Position numbers and translations under genes: made by a program. DNA of 64,000 bases from Planctomycetaceae bacterium (lineage in GTDB: Bacteria; Planctomycetota; Planctomycetia; Planctomycetales; Planctomycetaceae): NCBI GenBank assembly GCA_021732785.1, contig JAKFUG010000012.1, forward strand, positions 62,001 through 126,000, written 5' to 3'. Below are positions 6,190-54,240 of the stretch, piece after piece. Within the stretch, counting starts at the first letter, position 1, and each line of letters starts with the position of its first letter. Under the pieces are notes generated by a model. That model saw only the letters and a list, made by a program, of their open reading frames with translations, ran no database searches and had not been told where the DNA came from.

Positions 6190-6305
6190 GAAGGCCGTCT
6201 CGATTTCAAAGTAGGGATGAAGCCGCCGCGGGTCTCGTTATACTACCGCTTCACAGAACACCGCTGGAGTGCCCAGCGTGGGATATCCGTAATCGAACGG
6301 GATGA

Positions 6306-6443
6306 AGTTCCAAGCTCCAAACACCAAGCTCCAAACAAATTCCAAAGCCGACAGAAATTCCAAACGAAGAAAGTTCGCTTCCCCCGTTTGGAATTTGGAA
6401 CTTGGCGCTTGTTTGGAATTTGGCGTTTGGAATTTGGAAGTTC
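6306..6443. repeat. TTCCAAA/TTTGGAA long palindrome, copy 1
   Basis: The left arm is built of repeated TTCCAA words and the right arm of TTTGGAA words. They meet at a short variable centre (AAACGAAGAAAG ... CCCCGTTTGG). The transcript would fold into one hairpin of about 60 bp per arm. It lies in the divergent spacer between nadE and the parvulin gene. Related copies are at 30857-31006, 40358-40529, 53212-53352 and 54030-54178. Confidence 0.88.
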
Positions 6444-6497
6444 AGGACTCTTCCCCGTTCGAGAAGATTCTGATTGTTCGCAGCAGAGGAACCAACT

Positions 6498-26263: not shown

Positions 26264-27439
26264 TTAATTCTTCCGCCGGGCCATTGCGCGCGGCAGTTCC
26301 ATCTGAAACTCGCGCTGCAGCTCGTTCACCGTCTTGCCGACGATCTTCTCGAACTCCGCGACGCGCTCATCGGGGCGGTCCATCTCCAGCGGTTTCTTGG
26401 CGGCATAATGCTTGACGAGGTTGTTGTATTCCGCCCGGTATTTCGTCACCAGCAACCAGTGCAATCCCCAGGCGTGTCCATAGGCTTCCGCGGCGAGAAC
26501 ATCGCCTTGAAACGGTTCATCGCGCGCCACGATTTCCTGCCACGTGACCACGCGGGCCCGGAGAGCCATCCGGCCGTAACGGTCGCTAATCGATTTCGGC
26601 CCGCTGCGCACACGTTCGCCGTCCCCCTCAAAGCCGGTCGCCATCCCTTCGTTGAACCAGGACGGAACGGGAGCGAAGCGTTGCAGAATCCCGCGGTTGT
26701 AAACCTGCTGATGAACGGCTTCATGCAGCGGCGTATCGAACGTGGTGCATTCACTTAAGCGGATCACCAGGCGATTGGTTTGCAGATCATAGAATGCCGC
26801 GATGTTCGGCGAGGACAGGCCGCCCTGGTCTTCAGTGACCCGCGCTGTGTACGCATCGAAGTGACGATCCGATTCGAAGATGAGCGCCGCCAGGGGATAC
26901 TTCACCGCCTGGGTTTCAATGCGGGCCTGCTTGACGAATTCGAGAAAGCTGGTCTGCATGCCCTTGAAGAATGTGCCCGCCTTCTTCACGACCAGTTGAT
27001 ATCGTTTTTCCACGGTGGGGTCGAGTGCCCCCGGCCGCGCCCGGACCAGGACGATGACGAACGGCTTGTCGATGTTGGTGATGGTCCGCGTGGCGCTGAA
27101 TTCGTCGTTGATCTGCGCGAGGAGTTCTTCGTGCGTCAGCGGTTTGGGATCGGGGCCGGCTTTCCGCTGATGAATGCGTTCCGACGGAATGAGCTTCCAG
27201 CCGCCATCGGGCATTTCGAGCGCCGTTGCCTTACGGCCTTCCCCGGCAAACCGCGCGGTCAATGTCGTCGTCTCGCCGTTGTCGAGCCGGATGGTGAAGT
27301 CATCGGCCCGGGCCGCGGTGGGGGCGAGCAGGAGAGTGCAAAGTGCAAATTGAAAAATGCAAAGTGCAAAATGGGGAAGGCGATGCGCATCACTCCGCAC
27401 CGTGTCCGCTCTGCTCACTTTGCACTTTTCACTTTGCAT
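26264..27439 (-). CDS. DUF1570 secreted putative metalloprotein; N-terminus encoded by a dispersed repeat
   Basis: A 391-residue protein. The body matches DUF1570: VEKRYQLVVKKAGTFFKGMQ, IAAFYDLQTNRLVI and a zinc-peptidase-like LHEAVHQQVYNRG (HExxH about residue 235) followed by PSWFNEGMATGFEG, the third-ligand region of gluzincins. A peptidase role is likely but unproven. The only available ATG (27439) and most of the signal peptide (HFALCIFQFALCTLLLAP) are encoded by the AAAGTGCAAA palindrome at 27335-27458. The repeat thus supplies the hydrophobic leader. Confidence 0.85.
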   Translation of the reverse strand: MQSEKCKVSRADTVRSDAHRLPHFALCIFQFALCTLLLAPTAARADDFTIRLDNGETTTLTARFAGEGRKATALEMPDGGWKLIPSERIHQRKAGPDPKPLTHEELLAQINDEFSATRTITNIDKPFVIVLVRARPGALDPTVEKRYQLVVKKAGTFFKGMQTSFLEFVKQARIETQAVKYPLAALIFESDRHFDAYTARVTEDQGGLSSPNIAAFYDLQTNRLVIRLSECTTFDTPLHEAVHQQVYNRGILQRFAPVPSWFNEGMATGFEGDGERVRSGPKSISDRYGRMALRARVVTWQEIVARDEPFQGDVLAAEAYGHAWGLHWLLVTKYRAEYNNLVKHYAAKKPLEMDRPDERVAEFEKIVGKTVNELQREFQMELPRAMARRKN

Positions 27440-27458
27440 TTGTCACTTTGCACTGCAT
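27335..27458. repeat. AAAGTGCAAA/TTTGCACTTT palindrome overlapping a gene start
   Basis: The left arm AGTGCAAAGTGCAAATTG pairs with the right arm CACTTTGCATTTGTCACTTT and CACTTTTCACTTTGCATT, around a centre of about 45 bp. The start codon and leader of the DUF1570 gene lie inside it. Confidence 0.85.
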
Positions 27459-27471
27459 TGAACGATTTTTG

Positions 27472-28881
27472 TTATGCCAGCACCGCCTCAATCGGCTTTC
27501 CGCTCGACACCACATACGGTCGGCCCTGGCGATCGTGAATCTCGGTGTTCGGCTCGATTCCCAACGCGGCGTAAATGGTTGCCGTGATATCCGCCGGGCT
27601 GACCGCGTCGCGCAGTGGATAACCCCCGTCGCGATCGGACGCCCCGTATAACGCCCCGGCTTGCACACCGGCTCCCGCCATCAGGACTGAATAACAGTAC
27701 GGCCAATGATCGCGGCCGTCTGCTGTCGCTCCGGCCCCCGAGGTGACCATCCCCACTTTCGGCGTGCGACCGAATTCGCCCATGATCACCACGAGCGTAT
27801 CGTCTAATAATCCGCGGTCGGCGAGGTCATCGAGCAGTGCCGACACCGCCCGGTCAAATGGCGGACCTAATGCGCGCCGCATGAGTTTGAAGTGGTCGCG
27901 ATGGGTATCCCATGCCTGATCGATCCGCCGGCCGGTCATCATGGTGACGAGTTTCACGCCGGCTTCGAGCATCCGTCGCGCGAGCAACGCCGATTGTCCG
28001 AGATGCGGCAAACCGCCAAATTTTCGTGCCTCGATGGAGCGGTCGCTGCCCGGATCGACGCCGTATTTTTCGCGGAGTGACGCCGGTTCGCGCGACAGGT
28101 CGAACGCCGTCCGCACCGTGGGCGACGCGAGCAGATCGACGGCCTGTTGTTGAAACAGCGTCATCCGCTCGGCTGCGAGCGTGTCGACCGGATGGGCCGT
28201 GCCGATGCGCTGCATCAGATCGTGACGTTGCTGCAACCGGGCCTGTGAGGATTGAGCCAACGGAGCAAACCCCGGCGGCGAGTATCCCGGCAGGCTGGGA
28301 TCGCCGGTCACGAAGGGATCGTACGCCGCACCGAGGAACCCCGCGGTCTGGCCCGGCAGGTCGGACCCATTATTAAATTGCTTTTCGGCGATATGCAGGA
28401 AGTCGGGCATCGCTCCATGCGATGGTCGCAGCTTCGCCAGCACGGCCCCCACGGGCGGAAAATTCTCCGGACCCGAGTTCACCACGAGTTGCCCACTCTC
28501 AATCGGATACCGCCCGGTCAGCGCGTAATAACTCCCCGCGTTGTGATCGTTGATCGCATGCGTCACCGAACGGACGACGGCGAAGCGGTGAGCGTGCCGC
28601 GATAATCCCGGCAGCAATTCCGTGAACGGCAACTCGGGATGCGAGGTCTGAATGATGCCGAACTCGCCCCGAATGTTGGCCGGGGCTTTCGGCTTCACGT
28701 CCCACAAATCAATGTGAGAGGGGCCGCCATCCATGAAAATCAGCAGGCAACGTTCCGCGATCTTGCGTCCCGGCGGTGCGGTCGCGGCGGCGAGATGAGC
28801 GGTCGTCAATCCCAATGGCGAGAGCGCACCAAGACGCAACCAGTCGCGCCGCGTGAACTCCGGAGTGGGGAAGAACGCCAT
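27472..28881 (-). CDS. DUF1501 protein, third copy, with Tat-like signal
   Basis: A 469-residue DUF1501 protein. TRRDWLRLGALSPLGLTTAH is a typical twin-arginine leader. Core motifs are CLLIFMDGGPSHIDLWDVKP, VTHAINDHNAGSYYALTGRYP and VIMGEFGRTPKVG followed by GRDHWPYCYSVLMAG. Closest in layout to the common planctomycete DUF1501. It is transcribed leftward ahead of the DUF1570 gene, 32 bp upstream, and both could be read from one promoter. Confidence 0.92.
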   Translation of the reverse strand: MAFFPTPEFTRRDWLRLGALSPLGLTTAHLAAATAPPGRKIAERCLLIFMDGGPSHIDLWDVKPKAPANIRGEFGIIQTSHPELPFTELLPGLSRHAHRFAVVRSVTHAINDHNAGSYYALTGRYPIESGQLVVNSGPENFPPVGAVLAKLRPSHGAMPDFLHIAEKQFNNGSDLPGQTAGFLGAAYDPFVTGDPSLPGYSPPGFAPLAQSSQARLQQRHDLMQRIGTAHPVDTLAAERMTLFQQQAVDLLASPTVRTAFDLSREPASLREKYGVDPGSDRSIEARKFGGLPHLGQSALLARRMLEAGVKLVTMMTGRRIDQAWDTHRDHFKLMRRALGPPFDRAVSALLDDLADRGLLDDTLVVIMGEFGRTPKVGMVTSGAGATADGRDHWPYCYSVLMAGAGVQAGALYGASDRDGGYPLRDAVSPADITATIYAALGIEPNTEIHDRQGRPYVVSSGKPIEAVLA

Positions 28882-28964
28882 GGGATCGGTCCGGGAACGG
28901 AAGAAGATGGATGATAAATATGGTATCCGCCCCAGTGAGTTGAAGCCAGACGATGTTGGAAGTC

Positions 28965-29051
28965 GGAGGTTGAGGGTTGATGGTCGACGGTTGAGGGCCA
29001 GAAAAGAGAAACTCTCAGACCCTCAACCTTCGACTCTCAACCCTCAACTCT
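28965..29051. repeat. GGTTGAGGGTTGA hairpin repeat overlapping a stop codon
   Basis: GGTTGAGGGTTGATGGTCGA pairs with CCCTCAACCTTCGACTCTCAACC on the right. The right arm overlaps the last codons of the PIG-L gene (stop at 29044-29046), so the repeat has invaded the gene's 3' end. Confidence 0.8.
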
Positions 29052-29808
29052 GGAGAAGTTCCGCGAGCAAATCATCGTGCGGGTAAGAATGCCCGCGGTG
29101 TTGACAGAAACCCTCACCGTAGGCGACGCCGAGCTGTTGCCCCCGTGCGGCGGACCACCGGCGGGTGCCATCGAGGTATTCGTCCAAACCGTGCTGCCGA
29201 CGGAGCCAGTCGCGCTGGCTCGCATGGCAGGCGAGCATCGCCAGCTTGGTTTCGATCGTGGTCGAGATATCGACAATCAACCCCGGCGTTTGCGGGTTGC
29301 CGTAGTAATCCACCCCTTCAATCGCATCCACATAATACAGATGCGGGATGGCCGACGTCGGCGCGGCCGGGTCCCATTGCCGCGTGGCATAGTGCGGCAC
29401 GGACGCATTGAAACACGCATCACGCACCAGCCGACTGGTGATTTCGTGGTCGGCCATATAGTCGACGGGCGGCGCAGTCATCACAATGTGCGGCCGGGCC
29501 TTGCGAACCGCTTCTGTCACACGCCGCCGACTATCATCATCATGCACGATCGACAGATCGCGGAATTCGAGACAGACGTAATCGGCCCCGATCAAATCCG
29601 CAGCCCGTTTCGCTTCGGCCCGTCGCACCGCGGCAATTTCATCGGGCGGGAGTTCGGCACTCCCCAAATCGCCGGGTGTCATGGTCGCGATGGTGATGGG
29701 ACAGCCGAGTTGCTTCATCCGCAACAACGTCCCCGCACACTGGATTTCAACATCATCCGGATGCGCATGAATCGCCAGGATGCGGATCAATCGTGGGTCG
29801 ATGGCCAT
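29044..29808 (-). CDS. PIG-L/LmbE family N-acetylglucosaminyl deacetylase
   Basis: A 254-residue zinc deacetylase. The metal-binding motif [17 protein letters not shown] near the N-terminus, the [20 protein letters not shown] block (HxxH-type with Asp and His) and [20 protein letters not shown] match bacterial LmbE/BshB-like proteins. Such enzymes remove acetyl groups from GlcNAc-type sugars, including thiol-cofactor precursors; which one here is unknown. The ATG at 29808 ([11 protein letters not shown]) is chosen over the TTG at 29823. The C-terminal residues LLAELLQS overlap a repeat, so the end may be altered. Confidence 0.9.
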
Positions 29809-30817: not shown

Positions 30818-30856
30818 GGGGAAACCTTGGGGGATTGGGTCATCGACTTGATGAGG

Positions 30857-31006
30857 AAATTCCAAGTTCCAAAATCCAAGTTCCAAACAAATTCAAAGTC
30901 CCAAATTCCAAACGAGGAGACGGCCGGCTACTGCTGGAAACGGCGTTCAGTCTCCTCGTTGGAATTTGGAATTTGGCCCTTGTTTGGAACTTGGATTTTG
31001 GAACTT
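30857..31006. repeat. TTCCAAA/TTTGGAA long palindrome, copy 2
   Basis: Arms of TTCCAA and TTTGGAA words flank a centre AAACGAGGAGAC ... GTCTCCTCGTTTGG-like (actual right edge CTCCTCGTTGG). It lies between mch and the RimK-like gene, so a transcript through both would contain the hairpin. Confidence 0.88.
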
Positions 31007-31063
31007 AGCGTTTTGGGGCCGCTGAAATGGGTTCGCCTCGAAGACTCGGCAAACCCTACAAGC

Positions 31064-40334: not shown

Positions 40335-40357
40335 GGTGTGGCTCCGGGGGAATAATG

Positions 40358-40529
40358 AAGTTCCAAATTCCAAGATCCAAATTCCAAACAAGGGCCAAAT
40401 TCCAAGTTCCAAACGAGGAAAGAGTGACCGAGGGGTTATCTCAGAATGGTAATCGTGATCTGCCTTTGTAGCTTGGATTTTGGAAATTGATATTTGTTTG
40501 GAATTTGGCGTTTGGAACTTGGGATTTCC
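40358..40529. repeat. TTCCAAA/TTTGGAA long palindrome, copy 3
   Basis: GAAGTTCCAAATTCC on the left pairs with GGAATTTGGCGTTTGGAACT on the right. The centre (about 40401-40470) differs from other copies and has lost part of the right arm. It lies just upstream of the flippase-like gene. Confidence 0.85.
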
Positions 40530-40777
40530 GCTTATTCGCGCCACAGCCATTTTAGCGATTCCGGCAGAATCGCGCCGCCGGGTTTGTAGTCATCCGCAGC
40601 AAAGGCTGTCACGCACCGTGACAACAGGCAGAAGGTGGACCAGCAACGATACATCGAAAGATTCCCCAAAGAGCGTGAACTGTAGGGGCGAGTCGATATT
40701 GGTGCAATCGCGCTTGCGCTTCGCGGATGACACTGCGCGAGTACTGGCATCCGCAAAACGCAAGCGTGGCAGCATTA
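40530..40777. repeat. Spacer after zwf with CGCTTGCGCTTCGCGGATG hairpin
   Basis: The palindrome spans about 40710-40770: GCGCTTGCGCTTCGCGGATG against CATCCGCAAAACGCAAGCG. The same arm occurs near 60205-60283, and single arms (CCGCAAAACGCAAGCGG, CCGCAAAGCGCAAGCGG) near 14187 and 11926. A leftward frame (start at 40756, ending GAILPESLKWLWRE near 40532) could be a gene remnant but has no support. Confidence 0.6.
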
Positions 40778-53207: not shown

Positions 53208-53211
53208 TCAG

Positions 53212-53352
53212 GAAATTCCAAGCTCCAAACGCCAAGTTCCAAACAAACGCCAAGGGGTAATTTCCAAACGAAGAACTGGAATCGGCCTTGCTCGTTTGGT
53301 ACTTGGAATTTTGAAACTTGTTTGGAATTTGGTGCTTGGAATTTGCAACTTC
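53212..53352. repeat. TTCCAAA/TTTGGAA long palindrome, copy 4
   Basis: GGAAATTCCAAGCTCCAAAC pairs with GTTTGGAATTTGGTGCTTGG on the right. The centre is AAACGAAGAACTGG ... CTCGTTTGG. It lies in the sufR to nuoB spacer, 5 bp after the sufR stop codon. Confidence 0.88.
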
Positions 53353-54018: not shown

Positions 54019-54029
54019 GTTGAAGTCGA

Positions 54030-54178
54030 GAAATTCCAAATTCCAATGAGCAAATTCCAAACAATTTCCAAGGAATAAATTCCAAACGAAGAATGACGAT
54101 GTTCCGGCTGATCCATCCTCGTTTGGAATTTGAAATTTGGCCCTTGTTTGGAATTTGGTGCTTGGAATTTGGAGTTTT
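54030..54178. repeat. TTCCAAA/TTTGGAA long palindrome, copy 5
   Basis: GAAATTCCAAATTCCAATG pairs with TTTGGTGCTTGGAATTTGG on the right. The centre is AAACGAAGAATGACG ... CCTCGTTTGG. It begins 12 bp after the nuoB stop and ends before sufC, so nuoB is bracketed by copies 4 and 5. Confidence 0.88.
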
Positions 54179-54240
54179 TAGGCCCTAGTCAAGATTGTTG
54201 AGTCGTCCGATTGCGACTCTCGAAGAAGGTCCGCGACGGT

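Follow-up and report, generated by a model that had tools for sequence, protein, structure and literature searches.

The 64,000-nt stretch of Planctomycetaceae DNA analysed here (the window) carries a gene for a DUF1570 protein in which codons 1-35 fall on an inverted repeat, a copy of a palindrome built of tandem heptamers and dispersed through the source genome (G000). Judged from the sequence, this repeat very probably supplies the start codon, the basic n-region and most of the hydrophobic h-region of the predicted Sec signal peptide of the protein. The explanation that we consider likely is that a copy of the palindrome was inserted into the space separating two genes of the same direction, or expanded into it. 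There it would have replaced the start codon, the n-region and the beginning of the h-region in the signal of the DUF1570 protein, the mature protein being left intact. Such an insertion would have been tolerated through its geometry, since a period coprime to three, combined with a palindrome, would place a nearly ready-made Sec n-region and h-region just 5' of a secreted protein. The position and frame of the repeat, the lack of other ATG, GTG or TTG starts, the differing leaders of homologues, the enrichment of signal-like frames and further cases in the same genome carry this explanation; that the protein is exported and cut at ARA|DD, and in which order things happened, is what we infer.

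The start of the DUF1570 gene

The features of the gene and of its palindrome are as follows:

26264-27439, minus strand: DUF1570 (PF07607) gene, an open reading frame (ORF) of 391 aa (Pfam match of 62.1 bits)
27437-27439, minus strand: start codon ATG, within a repeat arm, in a CAAATGC unit
27416-27454, plus strand: palindrome arm, 5' in the gene, with the start codon and the basic n-region MQSEKCKV
27374-27415, no strand: loop between the arms, 42 bases, in frame, containing the alternative start GTG14
27335-27373, plus strand: palindrome arm, 3' in the gene, with the hydrophobic h-region HFALCIFQFALCT, residues 23-35
27305-27439, minus strand: leader, residues 1-45, MQSEKCKV...HFALCIFQFALCTLLLAPTAARA, with the proposed cleavage ARA|DD

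The arms (27335-27373 and 27416-27454) are built of tandem heptamers of the form AAANTGM and share a core of 32 nt (27342-27373 / 27423-27454) that is 88% complementary; beyond the gene start (27439), the repeat extends to 27454. Their unit, AAAGTGCAAA, is present in three copies in the window, all within 27340-27428, vs. 0.11 expected, and none of 100 shuffles reached three. On the gene strand, the palindrome folds at -57.5 kcal/mol, as compared to -38.3 +/- 3.7 for 200 shuffles (z -5.2). A preliminary description of this DNA had regarded the repeat sequence itself as a palindrome that covers the only ATG and the hydrophobic leader. The unit proved to be non-palindromic, the inverted repeat being formed by the two arms; the only early ATG and HFALCIFQFALCT do lie inside these arms, whereas the non-repeat part of the leader consists of the final h-region residues LLL and the c-region APTAARA. 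Read from the sequence and with our own Kyte-Doolittle (KD) hydropathy and charge criteria, the leader displays a basic n-region, a hydrophobic h-region and an A-x-A region before the mature domain. Signal peptide cleavage follows the A-x-A rule, and it is by this rule, not by a predictor, that the site ARA|DD was assigned.

A TGA is found in frame two codons upstream of the ATG. The in-frame ATG, GTG and TTG codons of the ORF are ATG1 and GTG8 (start-side arm), GTG14 (loop) and, further on, TTG60 and ATG76, with none between GTG14 and TTG60. For codons 46-59, which separate the repeat from TTG60, G000 and its syntenic sister genome G002 differ at codon positions 1/2/3 in 2/1/8 cases and, because these differences are mostly at third positions, this segment looks translated. 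In the AlphaFold model, the first predicted beta strand spans residues 44-51. Given this strand, the third-position bias and the conserved part of the relatives, which starts at the same place, translation most likely starts no further downstream than the loop; whichever of ATG1, GTG8 and GTG14 is used, HFALCIFQFALCTLLLAPTAARA comes ahead of the mature domain. A start downstream of the repeat, which the preliminary description had named as the finding that would speak against it, is thus not what the sequence points to.

The Pfam match covers residues 237-352 and passes the gathering cut-off of 22 bits. An HExxH motif occupies residues 239-243, of which H239, E240 and H243 are invariant among five aligned sequences, as is W-F-x-E-G. 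The AlphaFold model (5 sequences) has a mean pLDDT of 69, with residues 1-44 below 50, and the conserved domain starts at about residue 44-46. When the model was compared with the PDB, the best matches were collagenase peptidase domains (E 4e-4, TM about 0.3); the predicted fold weakly resembles that of gluzincin metallopeptidases of the collagenase type, and the protein is likely an exported metallopeptidase.

A match to the DUF1570 protein was found in 54 of the 59 genomes searched, its own included, many of them distant. The nearest homologue, that of G002, is 88% identical over residues 28-391 and is syntenic on both sides, with two further features of the window bearing on this comparison:

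27472-28881, minus strand: neighbour gene upstream of the DUF1570 gene and co-directional with it, an ORF syntenic in G002, which we take to be DUF1501-like
27306-27473, no strand: stretch unaligned to G002 (blastn of L070 vs. the window), 216 bases in G002

Homology with G002 reaches 27305 and picks up again at 27474, which leaves the leader and the spacer unaligned. The G002 leader reads VLLRSFLTTMLLLFHVNAFG|DEF and is located outside the spacer palindrome of that genome. At equal spacing, TLLLAPTAARA|DDFT can be aligned with MLLLFHVNAFG|DEFT on the basis of three leucines, and part of the older signal may survive in the present leader. F48 is invariant, and in the four aligned relatives conservation sets in at this same point (rows cut at the match). 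As for the 22 best other loci (L070-L091), their upstream readings gave other leaders, mostly conventional hydrophobic ones and none repeat-like, and the repeat was not found in the DNA of the nearest three homologue loci, to which this search was confined. The comparison of orthologous leaders, a check proposed in the preliminary description, therefore agrees with its claim that the repeat was recruited as the secretion signal or replaced the original one. A new gain would fit less well than the replacement of an earlier leader, given that leaders resembling signal peptides are already present in homologues.

Dispersed copies and the geometry of the heptads

The pattern AAANTGCAAANTG has 112 matches in G000 vs. 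2 for the reversed control, 55 in G003, 17 in G002 and 0 in G001, while the AAANTGC pattern is also present in G008 (17), G017 (12) and G165 (12). With the leader only as query, 67 matches were obtained in the genome at E <= 10, both strands. A survey of the arrays, which gives a lower bound as it covers 100 of the 112 pattern matches together with later contigs reached through the leader search, provided 52 array clusters in 45 stretches (the window and 44 others): 32 have paired arms (+..-), one has them in the reverse order and the rest are one-armed or mixed, some three-unit clusters being possibly due to chance (e.g. L043 and L064 at C40:33738). After merging, 51 elements were distributed between tandem (29), divergent (16) and convergent (1) genes, with two at an edge, two overlapping and a single one, the DUF1570 case, inside a called gene. 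Convergent gaps account for only 1 of the 47 gene gaps holding arrays, as compared to 22 of the 123 control gaps of >= 100 bases (Fisher P 0.005), and this rarity indicates that the arrays sit 5' of genes. The repeat is MITE-like (miniature inverted-repeat transposable element) in its many dispersed copies, its paired inverted arms and the occurrence of some copies in frame in genes.

A second full case of a repeat-derived leader, C52 (L067), reads MMSGQCKVQS...HFSLCIFHFALCTLLTPVSIAAAPP; its protein, of 772 residues, has no Pfam match at E <= 0.1. In a partial case, the PPC-domain protein of C26 (L060), the h-region is partly native, and every ATG, GTG or TTG that precedes residue 74 in the frame examined is inside the repeat or at its border. 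The relatives with a readable leader all have other leaders; these are 7 of the 9 printed for C52, only 24-30% identical, and 6 out of 6 for C26. Concerning the other array-meeting genes read in G000, possible starts are present downstream of the array.

Since seven and three share no common factor, all three frames of a pure heptamer array encode a single cycle of seven residues. Thus, a GCACTTT array yields the hydrophobic TLHFALC and its complement the basic AKCKVQS, with NTG starts, and the palindromic nature of the element imposes the basic-then-hydrophobic order on both strands. The arms actually present are less open than this, as a TGA arises in one basic-arm frame where units end in A. 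The variable base N of AAANTG in the G000 arrays is G in 98 units, A in 58, T in 30 and C in one, i.e. G, A or T in 186 of 187, as counted with a pattern requiring a following unit (the hit list has a few more AAACTG); it almost always makes an NTG start codon.

Among the 2344 classes of heptamer, 1184 have no stop on either strand, and two of these combine an arm KD >= 1.5, a complement charge >= 2 and a start codon, both being units of the AAANTGM repeat; the thresholds of this ranking, like those of the signal-like score, were chosen after seeing the case. A frame was scored as signal-like when it had a start, a basic n-region and a hydrophobic 12-mer without charges and was open to the end. 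Such frames number 30 out of 192 in the 32 paired-arm palindromes, where they are spread over 19 elements, and 22 out of 174 when the DUF1570, C52 and C26 genes are left aside. By comparison, 20 dinucleotide shuffles gave a mean of 2.1 and a maximum of 4, 380 intergenic segments of 110 bases gave 18/2280 and random segments 30/3054, and the five window palindromes of other heptad families gave none.

PF05635 genes between like arms

The palindrome is most likely, on comparison of the arms, a gene-less, MITE-like form of an element that carries a PF05635 gene (23S rRNA intervening-sequence protein, hereafter IVP), which presumably encodes a four-helix bundle, between like arms. The element of reference is the following:

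L062 2965-3510 (G000): C39 IVP element, syntenic in three genomes (L210, L214)

Its arms are 466 bases apart and flank a PF05635 gene (48.6 bits vs. a cut-off of 33.8); the window palindrome has its 42-base loop without such a gene. The C39 element is placed between two protein ORFs, which we take to be a MoxR-like ATPase gene and a DUF58-like gene, and not in a 23S rRNA helix, and it is syntenic in G002 and also in G003. Between G000 and G002, compensatory changes, matching on the two arms, affect 9 of the 39 stem columns, and another 3 columns differ on a single arm; the IVP gene differs at codon positions 1/2/3 in 39/18/92 cases, and 104 of its 145 residues are conserved. Both the hairpin and the IVP protein look constrained. 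The element is old and inherited in place, which makes it a candidate source, not a proven one.

The PF05635 search of five genomes yielded 22 loci, of which 17 are bracketed by period-7 inverted repeats. These repeats have a lag-7 identity of 0.56-0.80, above all other lags tested, and consist of many different heptamers. At the five remaining loci (L196, L200, L203, L209 and L213, with L209 at a contig edge), no spanning inverted repeat was found, and three of the 22 loci carry an internal stop. Control segments had any such repeat in 5 of 300 cases and a heptad one in 1 of 300. At the level of the phylum, IVP matches were found in 48 of 99 genomes. Among the best 29 further loci tested, 22 have an inverted repeat, including 14 of period 7 and six of period 8 or 9, the latter periods having been read by eye from the lag values and not counted in the controls; the looser controls used for these loci gave 42/300 with any inverted repeat and two with a heptad one, one of which is the C39 element itself.

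As for the arm families, G000, G003 and G002 each have an IVP gene with AAANTGM-type arms, and none of the three G001 IVP loci does. A second heptad, AAATCCG, has 43 matches in G000 vs. 0, arranged by eye as 12 short pairs, seven unpaired matches and one long pair, and this single long pair surrounds an IVP gene. In view of the G165 loci (below), the match between the arm families of IVP genes and the gene-less families is no more than suggestive. In the gene-less palindromes, the two arms of one element resemble each other no more than they do the arms of other elements, 5305 of 10000 permutations being as good for 26 of the 32 palindromes (six with fewer than two units in an arm were dropped, and differing arm lengths blunt the test). 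As these arms show no own-arm excess, concerted arm change is seen at the C39 IVP locus only. Taken further, and held tentatively, somewhat short of an even chance, the 7-9 base palindromes of planctomycetes might be non-autonomous copies of PF05635 hairpin elements, with rRNA intervening sequences as their rRNA-landed members and the AAANTGM family as a portable signal-peptide cassette occasionally captured at gene 5' ends.

Other heptad families were also observed. Five window palindromes belong to a CCAAATT/TTTGGAA family and have no loop gene (6300-6445, 30855-31020, 40355-40530, 53210-53350 and 54025-54180), and the IVP locus L215 of G003 has arms of the CCAAATT/TTTGGAA type. A palindrome with GGTTGAG heptad units is located at 28960-29055 of the window; like units form the arms of the G002 IVP locus L197. 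At L047 465-1079 (G000, C14), two arms about 550 bases apart enclose another inverted repeat and a small ORF that is apparently not IVP-like, perhaps as a result of nested insertions. A general scan for heptad palindromes was discarded as too strict, with 10 found in 349,928 bases and the window's own missed.

Alternative readings and comparison with known systems

Two alternatives concern the leader itself. The repeat might be extragenic and the N-terminus misannotated, with a downstream start at CTG37, TTG60 or ATG76 and an in-frame repeat that is accidental. Most repetitive extragenic palindromes (REPs) in N-terminal coding regions may indeed be extragenic through misannotation, according to the available part of the source (PMC3733652). 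The hydrophobic arm is moreover open in every frame, so that open in-frame stretches ahead of genes come as no surprise, and many were observed; a CTG37 start is also compatible with the sequence. This reading is nevertheless improbable in view of the third-position bias of codons 46-59, of the predicted strand at 44-51 and of F48, which is conserved in homologues having signal-peptide-like leaders before it, while starts at TTG60 or ATG76 would truncate the strand and lose any export signal. Alternatively, the leader could be translated and remain as an uncleaved membrane anchor, or the gene could be poorly exported and decaying, as the long n-region (22 residues from ATG1) and the Cys-rich h-region might suggest. 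That too we hold to be quite unlikely, for A-R-A|D-D fits the A-x-A rule and is located at the leader-to-mature turn of the homologues, and the mature gene is intact, its product retaining the high identity to the G002 protein given above.

A third alternative, compatible with the replacement of the leader, is that the palindrome is kept for a role in RNA or DNA (5'-UTR (untranslated region) hairpin, attenuation or protein binding), its coding use being incidental. The strong hairpin, the location of arrays 5' of genes and the concerted changes of the C39 stem all favour such a role, to which we attribute a minor though appreciable chance. It leaves unexplained why the start codon and the h-region fall inside the palindrome, and the gene-less palindromes, whose own arms match no better than those of other elements, speak against it.

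Several observations also count against the replacement of the leader by the palindrome, or against its link to IVP elements. The G002 spacer holds a different palindrome (GTGCCACTGGCTYTGCCAGTG, L070 about 2600-2740), so the ancestral state is not clean, and a start at GTG14, in the loop, would lose the repeat-derived n-region, with the h-region retained. No recruited leader was recognised in 18 array loci of G003, a genome that has the repeat (read with the G000 codon model), nor in the two distinct G002 arrays examined. Within G000, most arrays are intergenic and recruitment is rare. Concerning the IVP link, G165 has its pattern matches and yet none of its three IVP loci has AAANTGM-type arms, one having arms of another heptad and two having no arms found; the link is an association and does not imply that IVP moves palindromes. 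The preliminary description had called the case uncommon; the second full case and the partial one in the same genome qualify this, as does a Yersinia precedent of 2007, as far as the available part of that source goes (PMC2759123).

With leader replacement as the preferred reading, the DUF1570 gene offers a clear sequence-level example of a targeting signal replaced by DNA from a palindromic repeat, and the period of seven combined with the palindrome provides a coding-geometry reason why the AAANTGM repeat would be recruited more readily than others. Repeat-derived signal peptides are already known from Yersinia RU-2. The more novel part is the broader IVP-element story, which remains at the level of association: short-period inverted repeats flank most of the IVP genes examined that are not in rRNA and, for the two families considered, copies without a gene occur around the genome. 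Such bracketing gives a way into the unsettled question of how rRNA intervening sequences arose and how mobile they are. Among the open-licence papers searched, we found no frame-independent heptad design of this kind, none on heptad repeats in planctomycetes and no account of non-rRNA IVP genes enclosed in short-period repeats.

Palindromic elements of Rickettsia, reportedly described by Ogata in 2000, are said to occur in frame in protein genes, e.g. that of guanylate kinase. These are inserts in conserved proteins, whereas the window repeat would replace an N-terminal targeting signal. The Yersinia repeats RU-2 (Ypal) and ERIC (enterobacterial repetitive intergenic consensus)/RU-1f offer another close parallel: in the available parts of the sources, YPO1552 has a signal peptide derived from RU-2, and related proteins have unrelated signal sequences (Delihas 2007, PMC2759123, PMC2229807), the repeat spanning residues 1-30 of a predicted signal of 41 residues (PMC2759123). 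In the window, the leader is likewise repeat-derived and its relatives have unrelated leaders, but the start, the n-region and the h-region come from the two arms of a heptad palindrome, and those same parts of the sources mention no tandem heptamers for RU-2.

REP palindromes (GTAG/CGTC) are also dispersed, with some inside genes, and their mobilisation by a REP-associated tyrosine transposase (RAYT) encoded elsewhere has been raised in the part of the source available (PMC3733652). Inspection by eye revealed no GTAG/CGTC tag where the arms of the window copy end, and RAYT genes were not searched. Both are dispersed palindromes, and the window repeat is distinguished by its heptad tandem arms and by PF05635 as the gene between arms. 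Finally, 23S rRNA intervening sequences are presented, in the accessible part of the source, as stem-loops with terminal inverted repeats around an S23/IVP ORF, and views that regard them as remnants of transposition or mobile elements are summarised there (PMC4990558). The C39 element is similar in having a PF05635 gene inside inverted repeats, but differs from them by its location between protein genes, its short-period tandem arms and its many gene-less copies.
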